A DNA stretch of 64,000 nt, taken from contig JAIOYP010000001.1 in assembly GCA_021741155.1 (NCBI GenBank), positions 1 to 64,000 on the forward strand, given 5' to 3'. The position numbers and the translations under genes were made by a program. Positions 50,453 to 59,021 of the stretch are shown here, in pieces. Numbering within the stretch: position 1 is the first letter of the stretch; each line of letters opens with the position of its first letter. The stretch is from Flavobacteriales bacterium (GTDB lineage: Bacteria > Bacteroidota > Bacteroidia > UBA10329). Below the pieces are notes generated by a model. That model was not told the DNA's origin, did no database searches, and worked only from the letters and a program-made list of their open reading frames with translations.

Positions 50453-52972
50453 TTAAAACCTAAAATAAAAACTCGGCTTCACAATGAATTGCAGCGCATT
50501 TGAATTGTCCATGTAATTAATGCGCCACGTGAAATCAATCCGCGCAATTTTGAGGATATTCTCAATTCCAAAACCTACTTCAGCATAAGGATAGCCCATA
50601 TTCAGTTGCGTGGTTTTTGGAAGAAGGTATTCACCATTTTGGTTTTGGTCTGAAAGCCAACCAGAATAGATTTTTCCGAACACGAATTCGCGCAATTTTA
50701 GCTTTCGAACCCCTGGAATTTTATTGAAAAGCAGACCTTCGAAATGATGTTCCAAGTGCAGCGAAACGTAGCGGTCGCTGATGAATTCGATGTAGTTCAT
50801 GAGATTGAATGAATGGTCATCATTCAACAATAGTGGATTGGCGTTGGGCGTATGGAGCAGCGGAAACGGTACATTTCCGTTAATGATTCCTCCTTCGCCT
50901 AGAATGTTTAGGTAGCCCCATTTATTGGCGCGTAACTGATATTCCAGCTTCAGTTTGTAATGTTGATAATCGAACTGTGCGCCCCAAAGTCCTTTGAAAC
51001 CCGTGAGTACTTCCACCGAAATGGCTGGGTACTTGGCGAAAAACAGCCGCTTGCCATCCGACCCAAACGTGGCGTACATGTCGGTTTCGCCCCACGCAAA
51101 GCGGAAATTGAACCGCAATCCTGCCGAAAGGATGTTCGCCAGATTGCTAGTATCGATTCCTTCCTTTGATTGAAACGGAAGACTCAATGGCTCAATCCGA
51201 TCTCGGAAAGCGGTGACTCGCGAAGCAAATCCAGTAAACCATTGACGTTCCACAAAACCTTCGTAGGATTCAATCAATGTACGTTTTTGAGTTCCACTCA
51301 GCATAGTGAAAGAGGTCAGGATATGATCTAGCGGAATCACGTTTTGACTTCGTCCTTGTTGAAAAAGGTCGTTGCGATAATTGGCGCCCAACACCATTTT
51401 CTTGCTTCCTTTTCGGAGGAAGGTCAGTTGTGCGTTCGCGCCACCTTTCCAGCGTTTATCGCGAAATCCGTAGGCGGCATATCCGCCCAGTTCTAGGTGT
51501 TTGCTGAATGTCTCATTAGTTCTTACACCGAGCCGAACGCGGCTTCCTTCAATTTTATTCCAACTGTAAATAGACCAGATGTCACCAAGATCCACAGGAC
51601 CCGTTGCCACCCAACCTTCAGCCAACAAACGGATTGTGGCGAGAATCAACTTCCACTTCGGATCGCTGTTCATTCGGTCCACCATCGTCACCAATTTCTT
51701 CTCTTCGAGCGAGAAGGTATCCCGTCTCACGTCTTCCCAAAATTCTTCACTTCGGTTGTACGCGCTATCCTGTACAACTACGGGGTCAACGATGGAATAG
51801 AACTGTTTTTCGCGTGGTTCATTCAATCTGATATTTCGGACTTCGGTGGTTTTTCTGCCATAGAAACCCGTCATGTCTTTGGAGTTTTCAATCACCGTAA
51901 AATCGCCCAAAACCTGACTTTTTGTGAGAAACCATTGCTTGTTTTGCTCAAACGTGTAGTTCTGACGAATCCAATAATTCCTAACAAAATTGACGTTGGC
52001 CTCGATGCTGAATTCGACATCGACCTGCACCACGGCATAACTCACAGTATCGATGTACATCTCGCCCGTAAACGCCACATCGCTTTTGCCTTTCGGTTTG
52101 AAATAAATGTGATGACAATTGAAATTTTCGATGCGATGAATGCCCGAATCAAGCACGAAATTGTAGTTGCGCTTGTAGTAATCGTTAATAGGACTCGGAA
52201 AACTCTTATCCAAAATCACCACGTAATTGTCGTAAATGTTCGGGTCGATGTACATGTCCTGCACAAACTCCATGATGCGTGGCGCTTTGAAAAACTTGAA
52301 CGTGCGCTCGCCCTTAATGACCTTTTTCGTTGAACGTGGATTCTTTCGGTAGAAGTGTTCCTCGTTACTTTCCGTGAGGAGAATGGGTAGGTAATTCACG
52401 CCATTTTCAGTCGTATCGGTATTGTCCCAGATGTAATCAAACGGCCTCAGAAGCATATTTTTCTTCGCCTTTTCGGTGAAGTTGTTGAGGTCGAAGCGCA
52501 CGCGATGGTAGGTTTCATATTCGTAAGCGTCCAATCGTTCGGGGGTGTTCAGCGGTTTGTTCTCAATCACCTTTCGAAGGATTCTGAAAGCAGGATTCTC
52601 ACCAGGCCTGACTTTCACTTCGCTCAATTCAAACGAACTCGGCTCAAGTAAAATGTCAATCTCCTCAATCACACCATTTACCACAGGAAGCGTCTGTTTG
52701 CGATAACCAATCAGCGATACCTCAAGCGAATCAAATTTTCGTCTCGTTTCCAATTCAAAATTGCCAAGCGAATCAGTAACCGTACCCACGCTGCTACCCT
52801 GAAAGACAACATTAACGAAGGGCAGTTTTTGACTCGTTGATGCATCCGAAACAGAGCCGAAGACCTGTGTTTTCTGTGCGGAAACGCTCGAAGAAAAAAG
52901 GAGTAAGGCTAGAAGGAAAAATGACTGATTGATTCTATGCAGAACAATGGCTATAAAAGGGTTTGAACTCAA
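50453..52972 (-). CDS. Outer-membrane DUF5686 protein with carboxypeptidase-like N-terminal domain
   Basis: The protein is 839 residues. A signal peptide is followed by a carboxypeptidase regulatory-like domain (about 32-112, QVFGSVSDASTSQKLPFVNVVFQ). Next comes the DUF5686 region with AFRILRKVIENKP, and then a long C-terminal beta-barrel part ending YFRF. It is related to TonB-dependent receptor and surface barrel proteins of Bacteroidota. The cargo or function is unknown. The gene is single and divergent from the sulfotransferase gene. Confidence 0.9.
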   Translation of the reverse strand: MSSNPFIAIVLHRINQSFFLLALLLFSSSVSAQKTQVFGSVSDASTSQKLPFVNVVFQGSSVGTVTDSLGNFELETRRKFDSLEVSLIGYRKQTLPVVNGVIEEIDILLEPSSFELSEVKVRPGENPAFRILRKVIENKPLNTPERLDAYEYETYHRVRFDLNNFTEKAKKNMLLRPFDYIWDNTDTTENGVNYLPILLTESNEEHFYRKNPRSTKKVIKGERTFKFFKAPRIMEFVQDMYIDPNIYDNYVVILDKSFPSPINDYYKRNYNFVLDSGIHRIENFNCHHIYFKPKGKSDVAFTGEMYIDTVSYAVVQVDVEFSIEANVNFVRNYWIRQNYTFEQNKQWFLTKSQVLGDFTVIENSKDMTGFYGRKTTEVRNIRLNEPREKQFYSIVDPVVVQDSAYNRSEEFWEDVRRDTFSLEEKKLVTMVDRMNSDPKWKLILATIRLLAEGWVATGPVDLGDIWSIYSWNKIEGSRVRLGVRTNETFSKHLELGGYAAYGFRDKRWKGGANAQLTFLRKGSKKMVLGANYRNDLFQQGRSQNVIPLDHILTSFTMLSGTQKRTLIESYEGFVERQWFTGFASRVTAFRDRIEPLSLPFQSKEGIDTSNLANILSAGLRFNFRFAWGETDMYATFGSDGKRLFFAKYPAISVEVLTGFKGLWGAQFDYQHYKLKLEYQLRANKWGYLNILGEGGIINGNVPFPLLHTPNANPLLLNDDHSFNLMNYIEFISDRYVSLHLEHHFEGLLFNKIPGVRKLKLREFVFGKIYSGWLSDQNQNGEYLLPKTTQLNMGYPYAEVGFGIENILKIARIDFTWRINYMDNSNALQFIVKPSFYFRF

Positions 52973-53020: not shown

Positions 53021-54139
53021 TTGAGTAAGGTTCTCGGTCCAAAAAGCTACTTCGATTTTACTGCTCCAACCATTATTGGGGCAGACATTCGCACGTGGTT
53101 CCGATTTCTTTGGCGCTACGGTGGCGATATTGATTGGCGGTTTTGGCCGCGGATTTTTGTGCTCACTTTCCCGATTCTATTCTACACGCCAATTGTTTGG
53201 TGGGAACGATTTCGGTTTGGTCGGAAGATTCGCGAAACGAAGGTGAAAGCCCCGATTTTCATCATCGGGCATCAGCGGAGCGGAACTACATATTTGAATT
53301 ACTTGATGTGTCGGGACGAACAGTTCGGTTACCTGACCGTGAAGGAAAGTTTTATGCCTTGGATTTATCTAACGGCAAAACGGCATCTGGAATGGATGCT
53401 TGGTCGCGCGATTCCTGAGAAGCGTCCGATGGACAATCTCAAACTGGGGCTCGATTTACCAACGGAGCCTGAATACGCACTCGGAAACATGACCGTTTCT
53501 ACTATGCTAGCGGGATACATGATTCCGAAGCGACTTTATTCGGTGTTCCGAAAAACCGTGTTGTTTGACGATGCCTGCGACAAGGAGGAATGGAAGCATG
53601 CATTGAGGTATTTCATGCAGAAACTCACTCTCAAAAACGATGGTAAGCAACTCATAATAAAAGCACCTGAAAATTTGGGACGAGTGAAGGAAATTTTGGA
53701 GATTTTTCCTGATGCCAAGTTCATTCATATTCACCGAGACCCATATCGTGTGTATTTCTCCACCGAACGATTGTACGGAATTACGCTTCCGCTCGTGGCT
53801 ATGCAGTATTGTTCAGAGGATGTGGTCAAAGATTTTATCATGCGTTCTTATCGCGAGATGTTCGACCGTTATTTTGAAGCAAAAAGGCTGATTCCTAAGG
53901 GAAATCTTACCGAGGTGCGATACGATGATTTGATTGGTTGTGAACTGTCGGAGTTGGAAAGAGTGTACAATGAGCTTAGTTTAGAAGGTTTTGAAGCGGC
54001 CAAACCTTTCATCAAACAAGAGGTGAAGACGTACGAGAATTATCAGACGAACACGTACAATTATCCGCCTGAAAGGATGGCGGAGATTTATTCGGCTTGG
54101 GAATCGGTGTTTGACGAGTTGGGCTACGCTGAAAATTGA
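53021..54139 (+). CDS. Sulfotransferase family protein
   Basis: The protein is 372 residues with a TTG start. The 5'-phosphosulfate loop FIIGHQRSGTTYL (80-92) and the 3'-phosphate motif FIHIHRDPYRVYFST place it among PAPS-dependent sulfotransferases of the Sulfotransfer_3 group. An N-terminal helix near the membrane (FWPRIFVLTFPILFYTPIVWW) may anchor it. The acceptor is unknown; it could be a sulfolipid or surface glycan. No PAPS synthesis genes are near. Confidence 0.87.
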   Translation: MSKVLGPKSYFDFTAPTIIGADIRTWFRFLWRYGGDIDWRFWPRIFVLTFPILFYTPIVWWERFRFGRKIRETKVKAPIFIIGHQRSGTTYLNYLMCRDEQFGYLTVKESFMPWIYLTAKRHLEWMLGRAIPEKRPMDNLKLGLDLPTEPEYALGNMTVSTMLAGYMIPKRLYSVFRKTVLFDDACDKEEWKHALRYFMQKLTLKNDGKQLIIKAPENLGRVKEILEIFPDAKFIHIHRDPYRVYFSTERLYGITLPLVAMQYCSEDVVKDFIMRSYREMFDRYFEAKRLIPKGNLTEVRYDDLIGCELSELERVYNELSLEGFEAAKPFIKQEVKTYENYQTNTYNYPPERMAEIYSAWESVFDELGYAEN

Positions 54140-54275: not shown

Positions 54276-55529
54276 TTAAATCGGCAACATGCGGAAAGAG
54301 GCTTCCATTCTGTCGATTTCATCATCGCTCAAAACCTCATCAAAATACGCCCATACGAATTTCAATTTCCCGTTGTTTTTGGAAACCACAACGTTAAATC
54401 CAGGAGGACTTGGAACGGGAGGATAATGGAATGTGTTCATAACCTCAGCACCCAGAAAGTCATTCAACTTTATCTTATCAGTTCCCAAATCGGAGAAACC
54501 AAAGCTTGACATTTTGCCATTAGAAGCAAGGTCAACCATGGCTTCATAAACAGGCATCGGCATCAGGCGAAGCGAATTTAAAAGGTCGGTATACCGTTTT
54601 GTGATTCGGTTTTTAATCTGCGCTTTTAGCTGTTGGTTGATGGAAGAAACTGCGGTTTCGGTTTCGTTTAATTCTTCTGTCTTTAATCGAAAAAACAAGA
54701 ACGAAAGCTGATTGGAAACCAAATGCCCAGCGGTGCCTTTTTTGCGTTGGTCATTGGGAACAGAAAACCACAGATAAGGCGGGTTTTCATTCCTTTTTTG
54801 AAGCGTTTGCTTGACAATTTGAGCGGTTGCTGAAATGTATAATGCGCTCTGTCCGATTCTGGAGCCCGCTTTCCAAGCGTTCTGCTCAATCTGTTTTGTT
54901 TCCGCTTCCGAGAATTCAATCACTTTGAATCTCGGAGCTGATTTTGGCTTCAGATTCTTGTCAACCAACGTTCCGAGTTTCCCACTGCTTCTGCTTAGCA
55001 TGTAAACAGTCATGTACGAGAAATTGGCAAGCGTTCGCCAAAAATTAGGTTTTTCTGATTCGGGAAAAAGCGGAAACGTTTTAGAATCATCAGCTAACGC
55101 ATGCAAGAAATTTACCATTCCTTGATGGTCGAACAGCACATGGTGCATGGAAATGACCACGTGTTTGGTGTGGTCTTCTAATTCACATAGGTCTATGAAA
55201 ACGAGGCCGTTTTCGTTGTCGACTTTTCGGTTTAGAACGGATGATTCAAAATCGTCTTTCGCCACACCAGTTTGGGTTATGACATTTTTCCTTTCTCTTT
55301 TTTCCTTTTTCCAAACAGGAAGCAACGGCCAACGGTGAACTACTTTCAGTTCAGAAACGCTTTGGAACGTCCGATTTTGACATAAATGTTCTGCAATGGA
55401 ATTCAGATCAGCACTCGATTCTAACTCCAAATGAATCCTTGAGACATTCCCCACTAGACCATTCCGCAGCATTTTGCGGTCGAGTAGGAGGTGGAAGTAA
55501 TCCGAACCAGAAAGCGGTTGGCGCTTCAT
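54276..55529 (-). CDS. Stand-alone condensation/acyltransferase domain protein
   Basis: The protein is about 417 residues from the ATG at 55529. The catalytic motif MHHVLFDHQG (HHxxxDH) is that of condensation domains and WS/DGAT or PapA acyltransferases, which transfer an acyl group from a carrier protein or CoA to an amine or hydroxyl. The second block WFSVPNDQR, then LVSNQLSFLFF fits the C-terminal lobe. It starts on the ACP stop (TAATG, one-base overlap), so it probably accepts its acyl group from that ACP. The acceptor is unknown and it lacks any NRPS module. Confidence 0.82.
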   Translation of the reverse strand: MKRQPLSGSDYFHLLLDRKMLRNGLVGNVSRIHLELESSADLNSIAEHLCQNRTFQSVSELKVVHRWPLLPVWKKEKRERKNVITQTGVAKDDFESSVLNRKVDNENGLVFIDLCELEDHTKHVVISMHHVLFDHQGMVNFLHALADDSKTFPLFPESEKPNFWRTLANFSYMTVYMLSRSSGKLGTLVDKNLKPKSAPRFKVIEFSEAETKQIEQNAWKAGSRIGQSALYISATAQIVKQTLQKRNENPPYLWFSVPNDQRKKGTAGHLVSNQLSFLFFRLKTEELNETETAVSSINQQLKAQIKNRITKRYTDLLNSLRLMPMPVYEAMVDLASNGKMSSFGFSDLGTDKIKLNDFLGAEVMNTFHYPPVPSPPGFNVVVSKNNGKLKFVWAYFDEVLSDDEIDRMEASFRMLPI

Positions 55530-55777
55530 TACGCTTGATTCGAAATGGCACAATTCACCAACGAATCCAACGACTTCAGGTTATCGCCCGTTAATTGGTC
55601 GGCAGGAATCTCAATTCCAAATTCTTCCTCAATGTACATAACCAATTCAACCACCGTCATGGAGTCAATTCCGAGTTCGGCAAAGGCCATGGAAGCCTCC
55701 AGTTTTACGCCTTTGGCGAGAAACCGTTTGGTGAGATAGTCTGAAACTTGCGCTTCTATAGTGTCACGAGAAACCAT
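55529..55777 (-). CDS. Stand-alone acyl carrier protein
   Basis: The protein is 82 residues. The phosphopantetheine site is Ser39 in LGIDSMTVVELVMYIEEEFG, with acidic helix II typical of ACPs. It is not the fatty-acid synthase ACP (which starts differently and has DSLDTVE). It is overlapped by the condensation-domain gene and lies 20 bases after the flavin enzyme gene, so it likely carries a starter or product acyl group for this operon. Confidence 0.9.
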   Translation of the reverse strand: MVSRDTIEAQVSDYLTKRFLAKGVKLEASMAFAELGIDSMTVVELVMYIEEEFGIEIPADQLTGDNLKSLDSLVNCAISNQA

Positions 55778-55797
55778 GTGGGCAAATGTAGCCGATG

Positions 55798-57531
55798 TTA
55801 TTCCGAGTAGAGCATTCGCAGCATTCCACGAAGCGCAACCGTTGGTTTTCCTGAGACAAAATACTGGAGATAAACCGAACGAAAACGGTAGAGCAATGCC
55901 CCATTTCCTATTAATGCAATTCGCCTGTTGATGCGGTTCTTCCGCTTCTCTTTTTCGGAGATTGGCCCAAAGAAACTATGGAAAGGAGCAAAGCCGATTT
56001 GTTCGGTTCCGTGCTCAGCTTTTGCTTTCAAGGCCTGACTCATTTCGGTGAAGAAGGCAATTTGTTCATCCAAATACAGATGGTAATCTTCCTTCTTAGG
56101 ACGAGTCATCAATCCAACTGCACTTTCAATAAATAGTCGCTTTTGGGCAAGGTCGCAGAATGCAAAATGGTTCTCTGATTCCGTTCGTTCTGCCCATTTT
56201 CTGAATTCAGATTGAAGTTCTCGGTTGAGGATTGAAAGTAGTTCTACCTTCTTTGAGTACATCTTGATAAATTCAAAATCCTCAAGAAATCCACAGAGAA
56301 ATGGATGCGAATACACGCGCCAATAATAGATAGTGTCCCAAAGGAATTTGGCTGCCGCCACCTGCGTATTTCCAAAGGTGTGATAGCCATCAATGAAATA
56401 ACTCAACTGATCTGGAAAGCGGACATTCAAAACCTCATGGTTCAGTAAATCGACCTTTTCTGTTGTCAATTCTCCTTGAAAATCGGCAAGAATAAGGTTG
56501 GAGGTATACGTGTTTGTGAGGGCAATCATATCCGAACCGGGACTGTAGAACGGATCTGGAAAGATTCCAGCTTCTCCCACGCAGCTCCATCTTTTTTCAG
56601 AAAATAGTTGAGATGAACCGTAGCTGTAGCTCTTGATCTTTCGGAAATCAATCAGTTCTTTTCCGTGCAGATGTTTGGCAAGAATTGGCTCGTGTTCTTG
56701 TAGCCATGCGAAGCTTGTTTCGTACGAACGCGAATAGGTTGCAAAATCGTGAATATCGTTCTGGGTCACAATTCCAATGCTCGTATTTCCTGAGGCAAGC
56801 GGAATCAGCCACACCCAATAACCGTGTCCCATCAAATGATTGGTGGAGTAGTAGCGGTCTTCGATGTTCCGTTGGTGCCATTCAACATTGGAGGTTGGCA
56901 CAAGGTCATTCACAGATACTTTTCCTTCCATCCGAAACCACACCGAACTTGCCGAATGCGGACTATCCTTCTTTAACCCGAATTTGGTCTGTAAGTACCG
57001 CCTTCTTCCCATGGCATCCACCACCCAATTGGCAGCAATGGTCTCCGTGTTTGAGTTTAAGGAATACGACACCGAGTGCTTTCCTCCGTTCTCCGAAAAT
57101 TCAATGGTATCAAGCGAAGCGCCTTCGAGCAGATTCACACCTGCATCTTGCACCATCTGGCGGAGGTCGGTTTCAAACGTTCCTCTGTCTAACTGGTATG
57201 ATGGTACAGGCGAATACATGCTAGGCCCGAGTTCGGGACGGTCTTCTAAAGGCAGTTTTCCACTTCCGTAGAAGTAGCGAAGTCCGAGTTTTGGCAACTG
57301 TTCTTTTTCGAGATACGTTTTCAGTCCTAAAACATTGCTGAAGTAATGCGCACCGATTTCCACACTCGATTCGCCCACTTTATGGGCTGCATCGGGTAGG
57401 GGACGAGTGGTTTTTTCCAGGACAGTTATCTCAAGGTTAGATTCCAAACCCTTGAGTTGCAAGGCGAGTGTAAGCCCCGCCAAACCGCCACCGCAGATTA
57501 CAACGTGAAAAGATGTTTGCTCGGTTTTCAT
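55798..57531 (-). CDS. Flavin-dependent halogenase-like enzyme
   Basis: The protein is 577 residues. FAD-binding motif CGGGLAG (13-19), the halogenase/geranylgeranyl reductase signature KVGESSVE at 51-58, and WVWLIPLASGNTSIGIV near 238 (the WxWxIP motif of tryptophan-type halogenases). Later DPFYSPGSDMIALTN contacts FAD. It may chlorinate or hydroxylate an ACP-bound or carotenoid substrate. Its start overlaps the desaturase stop by 4 bases. A pure monooxygenase role is the main alternative. Confidence 0.85.
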   Translation of the reverse strand: MKTEQTSFHVVICGGGLAGLTLALQLKGLESNLEITVLEKTTRPLPDAAHKVGESSVEIGAHYFSNVLGLKTYLEKEQLPKLGLRYFYGSGKLPLEDRPELGPSMYSPVPSYQLDRGTFETDLRQMVQDAGVNLLEGASLDTIEFSENGGKHSVSYSLNSNTETIAANWVVDAMGRRRYLQTKFGLKKDSPHSASSVWFRMEGKVSVNDLVPTSNVEWHQRNIEDRYYSTNHLMGHGYWVWLIPLASGNTSIGIVTQNDIHDFATYSRSYETSFAWLQEHEPILAKHLHGKELIDFRKIKSYSYGSSQLFSEKRWSCVGEAGIFPDPFYSPGSDMIALTNTYTSNLILADFQGELTTEKVDLLNHEVLNVRFPDQLSYFIDGYHTFGNTQVAAAKFLWDTIYYWRVYSHPFLCGFLEDFEFIKMYSKKVELLSILNRELQSEFRKWAERTESENHFAFCDLAQKRLFIESAVGLMTRPKKEDYHLYLDEQIAFFTEMSQALKAKAEHGTEQIGFAPFHSFFGPISEKEKRKNRINRRIALIGNGALLYRFRSVYLQYFVSGKPTVALRGMLRMLYSE

Positions 57532-59021
57532 TCGGCCGCAGGCGTAAATTTTTCTTCAATAAGATTGCTGACAATTTTGGCCGAAAGTAAGCAGAGCGGA
57601 ATCCCAGGACCGGGATGAGCCGTTCCGCCACAGAAGAACAGGTTTTCCAGTTTAGAGGAAAAGTTCGGATGCCGCAGAAAAGCGGAGAACATACTATTGG
57701 AACTATTTCCGAATACCGCACCAAAAGCTGCACCTGATTCAGTAGTCACTTTTGGAGGATCGAGCACTTCTTCAAAAACGATGTGCGGTTCAATATCGGT
57801 TTTTAGAATCCCATTCAATTTATTGATGACGCGCTTGCGTGATTGCGAAACCAATTCATCCCAATTCTGTCCTGTATCATGCGGAACAGAAATGAGTGCC
57901 GCCCAATTTTCATGTCCATCTGGCGCATCAGCTGCATTCATCTTACTACTGCTGGTGAGGTGAATGGTTGGGTCTTCATACAGCGTTCCAGTCCCGAAAA
58001 GATGCTCGTATTCCTTTTGGGAATCGTTGGTCAAGAACATATTATGCAACCCAAGTTGCGGAAAGGTGCAATCCATTCCCCAATAAAAAACAATGACCGA
58101 ACTCGACCTCGGTTGTTCGATGAAGCGCTTAGGAGCAGCCAACGTTGGGAGCAGATGTTTATAGGTGTTGTAAACATCTGCATTGCTCACAATTAGGTCA
58201 AAATTCTCCTTTCTGTCTTCGGTTCTGATAGCCGTTGCGCGGTTTCCTTCGGTGATGATTTCGTTTACCGAAGCATGGAAACGGAACGTAACGCCAATCT
58301 CCTCTGCAAGTGCTTGAAGCGCGCTGATAATGCTGCGGATTCCACCTTCAGAAAAGTAAGTTCCAAGGGTGATTTCGTAATGCGCAATCACATTGAGTGT
58401 AGCTGGAGCCAAGTACGGATTGGAGCCGTTGTAACTGGCGTATCGGTTAAAAATGTCAACCACCTTCTGGTCTGCGAACTGTTTGGAATTGGCCGCATCC
58501 ATCGACCGGAAGACATCCACTTTCCCAAAGTTGAGAATGCCGCGAAGCGTACTCCAATTCAAGTAATTCTTGATTTTATGTAGCGAGCGCTGAAGGAAAA
58601 CCTCATCCGTTAGGAAATGCTTGGTTTCTGACTGTTTCAGAAAGTCGAGAACGGATGAAGCCGATGCGTTGGTGTTCGCTTCCACGTCAGCAGCAAGCTG
58701 CTGTGGGTCTTTGGATGAACGAACCTTCGTTCCATCTTCAAAGAAATAGTGGAAGATGGGATCGACAGCTTTGTAGTTCCAATAATCGGATGAGCGTTTT
58801 CCGCAGAGAGTGAACAGTTCCTCCACATACTCGGGTTTGGTGAGCACGGTTGGGCCTTTGTCGAAGCGAAAACCAGCTGCATTCAATTCGCTCATCTTAC
58901 CTCCTGCCGATGCATTTTTTTCAAATACCGTTACGGCAAATCCCTGACGCTGCAAGCGAATGGCGGCTGCCAGTCCGGCAATGCCCGAACCAATTACTGC
59001 ACATGTCTTTGCCTGTTTCAC
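57528..59021 (-). CDS. CrtD/CrtI-type carotenoid desaturase
   Basis: The protein is 497 residues. N-terminal FAD loop VIGSGIAGLAAAIRLQRQG, then GGKMSELNAAGFRFDKGPTV, and C-terminal GGTAHPGPGIPLCLLSAKIV, all typical of phytoene desaturase relatives. The C-terminal signature is closer to 1-hydroxycarotenoid 3,4-desaturase (CrtD) than to CrtI. It oxidises a polyene or carotenoid chain. It is first in the four-gene operon, overlapping the flavin enzyme by 4 bases. No other carotenoid genes are in view. Confidence 0.87.
   Translation of the reverse strand: MKQAKTCAVIGSGIAGLAAAIRLQRQGFAVTVFEKNASAGGKMSELNAAGFRFDKGPTVLTKPEYVEELFTLCGKRSSDYWNYKAVDPIFHYFFEDGTKVRSSKDPQQLAADVEANTNASASSVLDFLKQSETKHFLTDEVFLQRSLHKIKNYLNWSTLRGILNFGKVDVFRSMDAANSKQFADQKVVDIFNRYASYNGSNPYLAPATLNVIAHYEITLGTYFSEGGIRSIISALQALAEEIGVTFRFHASVNEIITEGNRATAIRTEDRKENFDLIVSNADVYNTYKHLLPTLAAPKRFIEQPRSSSVIVFYWGMDCTFPQLGLHNMFLTNDSQKEYEHLFGTGTLYEDPTIHLTSSSKMNAADAPDGHENWAALISVPHDTGQNWDELVSQSRKRVINKLNGILKTDIEPHIVFEEVLDPPKVTTESGAAFGAVFGNSSNSMFSAFLRHPNFSSKLENLFFCGGTAHPGPGIPLCLLSAKIVSNLIEEKFTPAAE

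Follow-up and report, generated by a model that had tools for sequence, protein, structure and literature searches.

What would bring a carotenoid-type desaturase, a halogenase-like flavoenzyme, a free acyl carrier protein (ACP) and a stand-alone acyltransferase (AT) together in one operon? The question is raised by four genes on the minus strand of the window, a stretch of 64,000 nucleotides (positions 1 to 64,000 of contig JAIOYP010000001.1, assembly GCA_021741155.1) from a Flavobacteriales bacterium whose genome, here G000, is 94.7% complete. The answer that we favor, with a probability of about 0.58, is that these genes belong with a convergent sulfotransferase (ST) gene to a xanthophyll-tailoring module, by which a zeaxanthin-type carotenoid would be desaturated, acylated in an ACP-dependent manner and sulfated. 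The module itself is real, inherited as a functional unit and linked with carotenoid genes, as is seen in its gene content, its conservation and co-occurrence, the CrtD subgroup that goes with it and, in some relatives, its linkage to carotenoid genes.

The Four-Gene Operon

The operon begins with the gene for the CrtD-like FAD desaturase (57528..59021, 497 amino acids), which overlaps by ATGA with that of a flavin halogenase/monooxygenase-like enzyme of 577 amino acids (55798..57531). Twenty bases separate the latter from the gene of an 82 amino acid ACP (55529..55777), which in turn shares a TAATG overlap with the AT gene (54276..55529), and because of this overlap the AT most likely starts at the ATG at 55529, rather than at the TTG at 55553 given in the list of open reading frames. 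The translations carry the motifs KVGESS and GYWVWLIP in the flavoenzyme, GIDSM with its serine in the ACP and MHHVLFDHQG in the AT. The coordinates were confirmed and the junctions read directly on the minus strand, so that the closely spaced operon proposed in the sequence-only reading stands. The four-gene order is repeated in three more genomes of the same genus (G001, G005 and G007, with the CrtD of G007 running off its contig) and is therefore not a matter of chance; the taxonomic order of the organism is sampled by nine genomes, all of one genus. In G003 the set has decayed, with CrtD and the flavoenzyme broken by stops and frameshifts and the ACP and AT intact (L028 9698-12842, on G003:C163). 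What the four-gene view overlooked is that the module is larger, that it includes the ST, that CruF is missing and that the CrtD belongs to a distinct subgroup.

Distribution of the Module in Bacteroidia

A profile of the AT matched 26 of 395 Bacteroidia genomes (called AT-positive below) from nine genera, with E values from 8e-250 to 4e-30, and the conserved module occurs across several families of the class. The neighborhoods of the 26 AT loci, the window included, were compared over 8 kb around the AT, with one fixed set of queries run in tblastn, some of the loci being cut by contig ends. Within this distance the ACP was found at 21 loci, CrtD at 16 and the ST at 15, together with an FAD oxidoreductase at 13 (five proteins checked against PF12831, the remainder being tblastn matches), a DUF5686 protein at 13 (that of G093 a weak partial match) and an AMP ligase at seven (four checked against PF00501, the remainder again tblastn matches). 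A window-type flavoenzyme was present at five loci, one copy being broken, a glycosyltransferase at three, and at two loci each a second flavin-halogenase-like enzyme (FLV2), a CrtZ-like protein termed CrtZ2 (counted only at retrieved loci), a fatty-acid hydroxylase and an ABC permease. Over all 395 genomes the glycosyltransferase matched in 12, of which nine are AT-positive.

The ST gene (53021..54139, plus strand), convergent to the operon, scores 104.7 bits on the PAPS sulfotransferase family PF13469, well above the cut-off of 27. Used as a query with a threshold of E 1e-40, it matched 36 of the 395 genomes. Every one of the 24 genomes with a match of at least 225 bits is AT-positive, including six genomes of f4 in which the ST and AT lie on separate contigs; the remaining 12 matches reach at most 213 bits, and one of these genomes, G198, is AT-positive with its ST adjoining the AT. 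Within genera, the genes of the module are gained and lost together. In g1, neither CrtD (at 1e-100) nor the ST (at 1e-40) is matched in the AT-negative G008; in g9 there is no ST match in the AT-negative G096 and G158 and only one of 192.6 bits in G286; and the window ST query found none in seven AT-negative relatives in g20 that have CrtD matches. G008, which lacks matches for AT and crtB as well as CrtD (1e-100), also holds an ST-like remnant of 56 amino acids (52%) beside a glycosyltransferase (G008:C1, L321 8277-8444). On its other side, the window ST has as neighbor a CarboxypepD_reg and DUF5686 protein (50453..52972, minus strand; PF18939, 156.8 bits), and this gene stays near the ST in six families, even where the ST is far from the AT.

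A Distinct Subgroup of CrtD

The window CrtD scores 538.4 bits on the NCBIfam model NF042421 (CrtD, 1-hydroxycarotenoid 3,4-desaturase) and exceeds its equivalog cut-off of 500, as would be expected if it were an ordinary CrtD of the saproxanthin, myxol or flexixanthin pathway standing beside unrelated lipid genes. In the portions of the source papers available, CrtD is described as acting after CruF in myxol synthesis in Nonlabens spongiae (PMC11855829), and a CruF-CrtD set as making flexixanthin (PMC10784355). CruF (PF04240), the hydratase that provides an ordinary CrtD with its 1-hydroxy substrate, gave no match in G000, and a search of the 26 AT-positive genomes left 21 without one, the unrelated hydratase CrtC not having been searched for. 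Matches were obtained in five of 27 genomes (the 26 plus G008), namely G001, G027, G060, G137 and G249, and these five speak for the ordinary pathway, but G001 and G060 each hold a separate CrtD that adjoins CruF. The scores are similarly divided: five CrtDs from AT-positive genomes reach 487-595 bits on NF042421, two of them below the cut-off, whereas five CruF-adjacent CrtDs reach 595-718, and the two ranges meet at 595.

At E 1e-100, CrtD was found in 166 of the 395 genomes, including all 26 that are AT-positive. In a tree of 58 rows (49 CrtD and nine CrtI-type), one group, with support of 96/85, was made up of 19 rows that come exclusively from AT-positive genomes. The larger tree held 93 CrtD rows, 67 of them AT-negative and drawn mostly from the top-ranked of the 140 AT-negative genomes in which CrtD was matched, and 26 AT-positive from 22 genomes; open reading frames of less than 400 amino acids (G003, G007 and G125) were left out, and G198 offered no full CrtD for inclusion. 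Here the group comprised 21 rows, again all AT-positive, with the 67 AT-negative rows outside without exception. Five AT-positive rows fell outside, four of them the second CrtD copies of G001, G060, G027 and G137 and the fifth the sole match of G249, and in both trees the CruF-adjacent CrtDs lie outside the AT-linked group.

Near-invariant residues are changed in this group. With the groups defined by AT status and tree before counting, Y occupies site 334 (window CrtD numbering) in 71 of the 72 rows outside and is replaced by D, S, A, Q or P in all 21 group rows, site 378 is N in 72/72 outside, with 19 of the 21 having T or S and two having N, site 196 is T in 72/72 outside and S in 18 of the 21 (T in one), and site 90 is F in 21/21 group rows and in three of the 72 outside, a pattern that common descent alone could yield. 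Because CruF is so seldom found, and because of the tree and residue tests, we regard an ordinary CrtD beside unrelated genes as quite unlikely.

The CruF protein that served as query (364 amino acids; G001:C308, L126 2104-4655) appears to be a CruF-CrtZ fusion, its C-terminal part sharing 54% identity with the CrtZ-like protein of G000. The short "CruF" matches of 53-62% were for this reason taken as CrtZ-like, that of G073 being the one compared individually. The fusion gene adjoins a separate CrtD, and farther along lies an open reading frame of 248 amino acids that, judged by eye, may encode a rhodopsin; the contig may be contamination.

The Acyl Carrier Protein and the Acyltransferase

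The ACP reaches 43 bits on the PP-binding family PF00550 (cut-off 20.8) and is conserved in five genomes. The AT lies below every Pfam and NCBIfam cut-off, with 20.2 bits for WS/DGAT (TIGR02946), 13.8 for Transferase (PF02458) and 13.8 for Condensation (PF00668). It does carry the HHxxxD motif of the CoA-dependent acyltransferase superfamily, H128, H129 and D133 being invariant in five AT sequences. A Foldseek search with a predicted AT structure (pLDDT 55) returned AzeD, WS/DGAT enzymes, C domains and PapA5 at E 1e-11, with a TM score of about 0.35 and an rmsd of about 20, a likeness at the superfamily level only. The AT was also considered as a condensation domain of a non-ribosomal peptide synthetase (NRPS) and rejected as such, since its PF00668 score falls short of the cut-off of 30.6 bits and a search of the whole genome with this family gave no match at E 0.001.

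That the ACP and AT have no polyketide synthase or NRPS partner, as had been noted from the sequence, holds in the window; elsewhere seven of the 26 AT loci include an AMP ligase. The suggestion of ACP-bound acyl transfer, presumably to a hydroxyl, gains from the comparison, both from these ligases and from the relatives of the weak AT model. The acceptor could be something other than a carotenoid, in that the product of the ACP, AT and ST might be a lipid or aryl ester that is both sulfated and acylated, with the CrtD relative acting as desaturase of a polyene or a lipid chain. In keeping with such a product, the AT is as similar to WS/DGAT enzymes and PapA5 as it is to C domains, the AMP ligase has matches to many families but attains the cut-off for none of those listed, and G002 has no match for crtB or the cyclase. 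The evidence on the other side comes from the CrtD subgroup, which is close to real CrtDs, and from the carotenoid genes themselves.

Linkage to Carotenoid Genes

In G000, genes for CrtI, CrtB, a CrtZ-like hydroxylase, CrtZ2, a lycopene cyclase and a glycosyltransferase lie together on contig C5. Across the 27 genomes introduced above, crtB was found in 24 (not in G002, G008 or G249), which makes 24 of the 26 AT-positive genomes, and lycopene cyclase in 26, or 25 of the 26 AT-positive (G003 being below the cut-off), with G002 the one in which it is missing.

The pigment link drawn from the desaturase in the sequence-only reading appears well placed in this comparison, as carotenoid genes adjoin the module in G073 and G198. 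The run in G073 consists of CrtD, FLV2, ACP, AT, FAD oxidoreductase, AMP ligase, ST, DUF5686, CrtI, CrtB, CrtZ and cyclase, with two small extra open reading frames (L081, L308), and its CrtZ is 55% identical to that of G000; G224 shows the same arrangement split over two contigs. The CrtI-CrtB-CrtZ-cyclase genes of G198 have DUF5686 and part of a CrtD as neighbors, with the AT on a different contig. Three g9 genomes have CrtD directly next to CrtZ, the AT being found with ST, DUF5686 and the glycosyltransferase at another place, and in two g20 genomes CrtD abuts the CrtZ-like CrtZ2. A second hydroxylase of the CrtZ-like kind, divergent and unmatched in Pfam, was also noted at L087 4127-4621, and its homolog adjoins CrtD in two g20 genomes. 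The junctions with carotenoid genes (G073, G198) and with CrtZ or CrtZ-like genes (five genomes), along with the presence of crtB in nearly all AT-positive genomes, make the non-carotenoid lipid or aryl ester unlikely.

The Flavoenzyme

The flavoenzyme scores 43.2 bits on PF04820 (Trp_halogenase; cut-off 21), and its relatives of solved structure are PltA (1e-15), 3nix, ChlB4, 5buk and CmlS. The residues K81-x-G83 and W239-V-W241-x-I243-P244 are invariant in 10 relatives, so that the lysine and the WxWxIP motif of halogenases are both present; the halogenase lysine has a catalytic role, and K81 aligns with the KKFG region of PltA, one residue off. An AlphaFold model from a three-sequence alignment had a mean pLDDT of 42.5, too low to use. 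Orthologs within the genus are 63-75% identical. The enzyme is an optional, lineage-specific part of the module, since G002, G004 and G006 keep CrtD, ACP and AT together with no flavoenzyme at the locus. FLV2, a remote member of this superfamily (23%), adjoins CrtD in G073 and G224. Among the outside relatives of the window CrtD, those of these two genomes come closest (support 84/87 in the smaller tree and 87 in the larger), and a role in the pathway is therefore favored, halogenation as such not. Halogenation is possible on the strength of the motifs.

Two tandem paralogs, 42-44% identical to the window flavoenzyme, are encoded on G000:C38 (L020 10299-13839) between DarH-ABC genes and a DUF1702 gene, the DarH scoring 446.9 bits (equivalog cut-off 300); this DAR-type operon is on a different contig from the window. 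Given these neighbors, the flavoenzyme was probably recruited from a DAR/flexirubin-type operon. A large open reading frame on the same contig (L021 16150-19998) has an N-terminus that looks Cas9-like by eye. The paralogs also make it conceivable that the locus is a side branch of flexirubin or aryl-polyene synthesis, in which an aryl-polyene acid would be the substrate that the flavoenzyme, ACP and AT alter or attach and CrtD is incidental, and the ABC permease at the AT locus of G027 shares 34% identity with its counterpart in the DAR-type operon. This is highly improbable, as the flavoenzyme is absent from 21 of the 26 AT loci, the module and the DarH gene are on different contigs, and a ketosynthase query gave nothing beside the AT in the scanned loci. 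Membership of the window locus in a flexirubin/DAR cluster was likewise rejected, no ketosynthase, DarH or DAR gene being recognized among the window open reading frames read. The proposed flexirubin-type tailoring is thus half right, for the flavoenzyme, on account of its identity to the paralogs near DarH; the refuting outcome named in that reading, homologs that always lie within flexirubin or aryl-polyene clusters, did not arise, the locus being a separate one and the DAR-type operon of the genome lying on another contig.

Proposed Pathway

For the xanthophyll-tailoring module, the following course of events can be envisaged. The host would make a dicyclic zeaxanthin-type carotenoid from its separate operon of CrtI, CrtB, CrtZ-like hydroxylase and lycopene cyclase, and the CrtD-like enzyme would add an extra double bond to an end group that lacks 1-hydroxylation. 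The dedicated ACP would hold an acyl group, which in some relatives a neighboring AMP ligase probably loads and an FAD oxidoreductase may oxidize. By analogy with PapA5, the AT may then transfer the ACP-bound acyl group to a hydroxyl on the carotenoid or on the sugar that it bears, and the co-occurring ST may sulfate the same molecule. Least certain is the last step, in which a halogenase-like enzyme beside CrtD, in the window genus and separately in another family, might add a lineage-specific halogenation or hydroxylation.

Several observations weigh against this pathway. The foremost is G002 (98% complete), which keeps CrtD, ACP, AT and ST and yet has no match for crtB, lycopene cyclase or the glycosyltransferase; a single missing or lost locus could account for all three, but G002 counts as a genuine counter-example. 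In G249 (71% complete) the AT, ACP, AMP ligase, FAD oxidoreductase and CruF are present, with no match for the ST or crtB and no CrtD of the AT-linked group. Linkage is only partial, the ST lying within 8 kb of the AT in just 15 of the 26 and CrtD in 16, and an ACP was not found beside the AT in G011, G016, G049, G060 and G198, G011 and G016 being contig ends. The window operon has no AMP ligase with which to load the ACP. The co-occurrence of ST and AT has a Fisher p of 2e-36 for the strict 24 matches and 6e-30 for all 36, values uncorrected for kinship, and the SH-aLRT of the CrtD group in the larger tree is 83, below 95 and thus not strong support. Lastly, the CrtZ proteins are presumed to be such from histidine motifs and their mutual identity, and Pfam gave no match for four CrtZ-like stretches or for that of L074.

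In its fullest form the proposal is of a new carotenoid pathway of Bacteroidia, in which the CrtD subgroup would desaturate a dicyclic xanthophyll, the carrier protein and HHxxxD enzyme would esterify it with an activated, sometimes oxidized or halogenated acyl group, and the ST genes would be the first for carotenoid sulfation, with the window genus possibly contributing the first halogenase of a carotenoid pathway. As a whole this is a tentative extension, and we hold it to be doubtful.

Relation to Known Systems

The AT resembles PapA5 and the WS/DGAT acyltransferases in being a stand-alone HHxxxD enzyme; it is too distant for the family cut-offs, and the proposed acceptor is a carotenoid. 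PapA5 acylates a diol, with a carrier protein as the acyl donor. With the halogenases PltA and CmlS, the flavoenzyme shares GxGxxG, the lysine in K-x-G, WxWxIP and the DPFYSPG region, whereas its activity is predicted only and its nearest paralogs are enzymes of DAR-type operons. PltA, for its part, works on a carrier-bound substrate.

The flexirubin and arcuflavin clusters, as far as described in the available parts of PMC3992019 and PMC3949708, are alike in having a related flavoenzyme, a polyene pigment and an ester bond; the present module differs in its separate locus and isoprenoid pigment genes, and no ketosynthase was found beside the AT. The CruF-CrtD clusters for myxol and saproxanthin in Nonlabens spongiae (PMC11855829, from the portion available) similarly place a CrtD-family desaturase in a Bacteroidota host with CrtI, CrtB, CrtZ and lycopene cyclase, in contrast to the AT-positive genomes, most of which (21/26) have no CruF that was found, and which have another CrtD group and the addition of ACP, AT and ST. 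Sulfated zeaxanthin, caloxanthin and nostoxanthin were reported from Erythrobacter flavus (PMC6627997), which is comparable in its sulfate on a zeaxanthin-type carotenoid and differs in being an alphaproteobacterium, with no acyl group mentioned in the available part of that report.

In open-licence PMC literature no carotenoid cluster joining a sulfotransferase and an acyl carrier protein was found, and neither "carotenoid sulfotransferase" nor "halogenated carotenoid" occurs as a term among the matches listed. Automatic annotation labels the CrtD subgroup as ordinary CrtD, even though CruF, the supposed partner that makes the substrate, is usually not found. The 2019 paper on sulfated carotenoids, in the part available, calls the genes for sulfation unexplored (PMC6627997). 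The module offers a candidate carotenoid sulfotransferase in the ST, which occurs together with a desaturase of carotenoid type and an ACP-dependent AT, and, if the reading is true, could reveal the missing enzymes of carotenoid sulfation.

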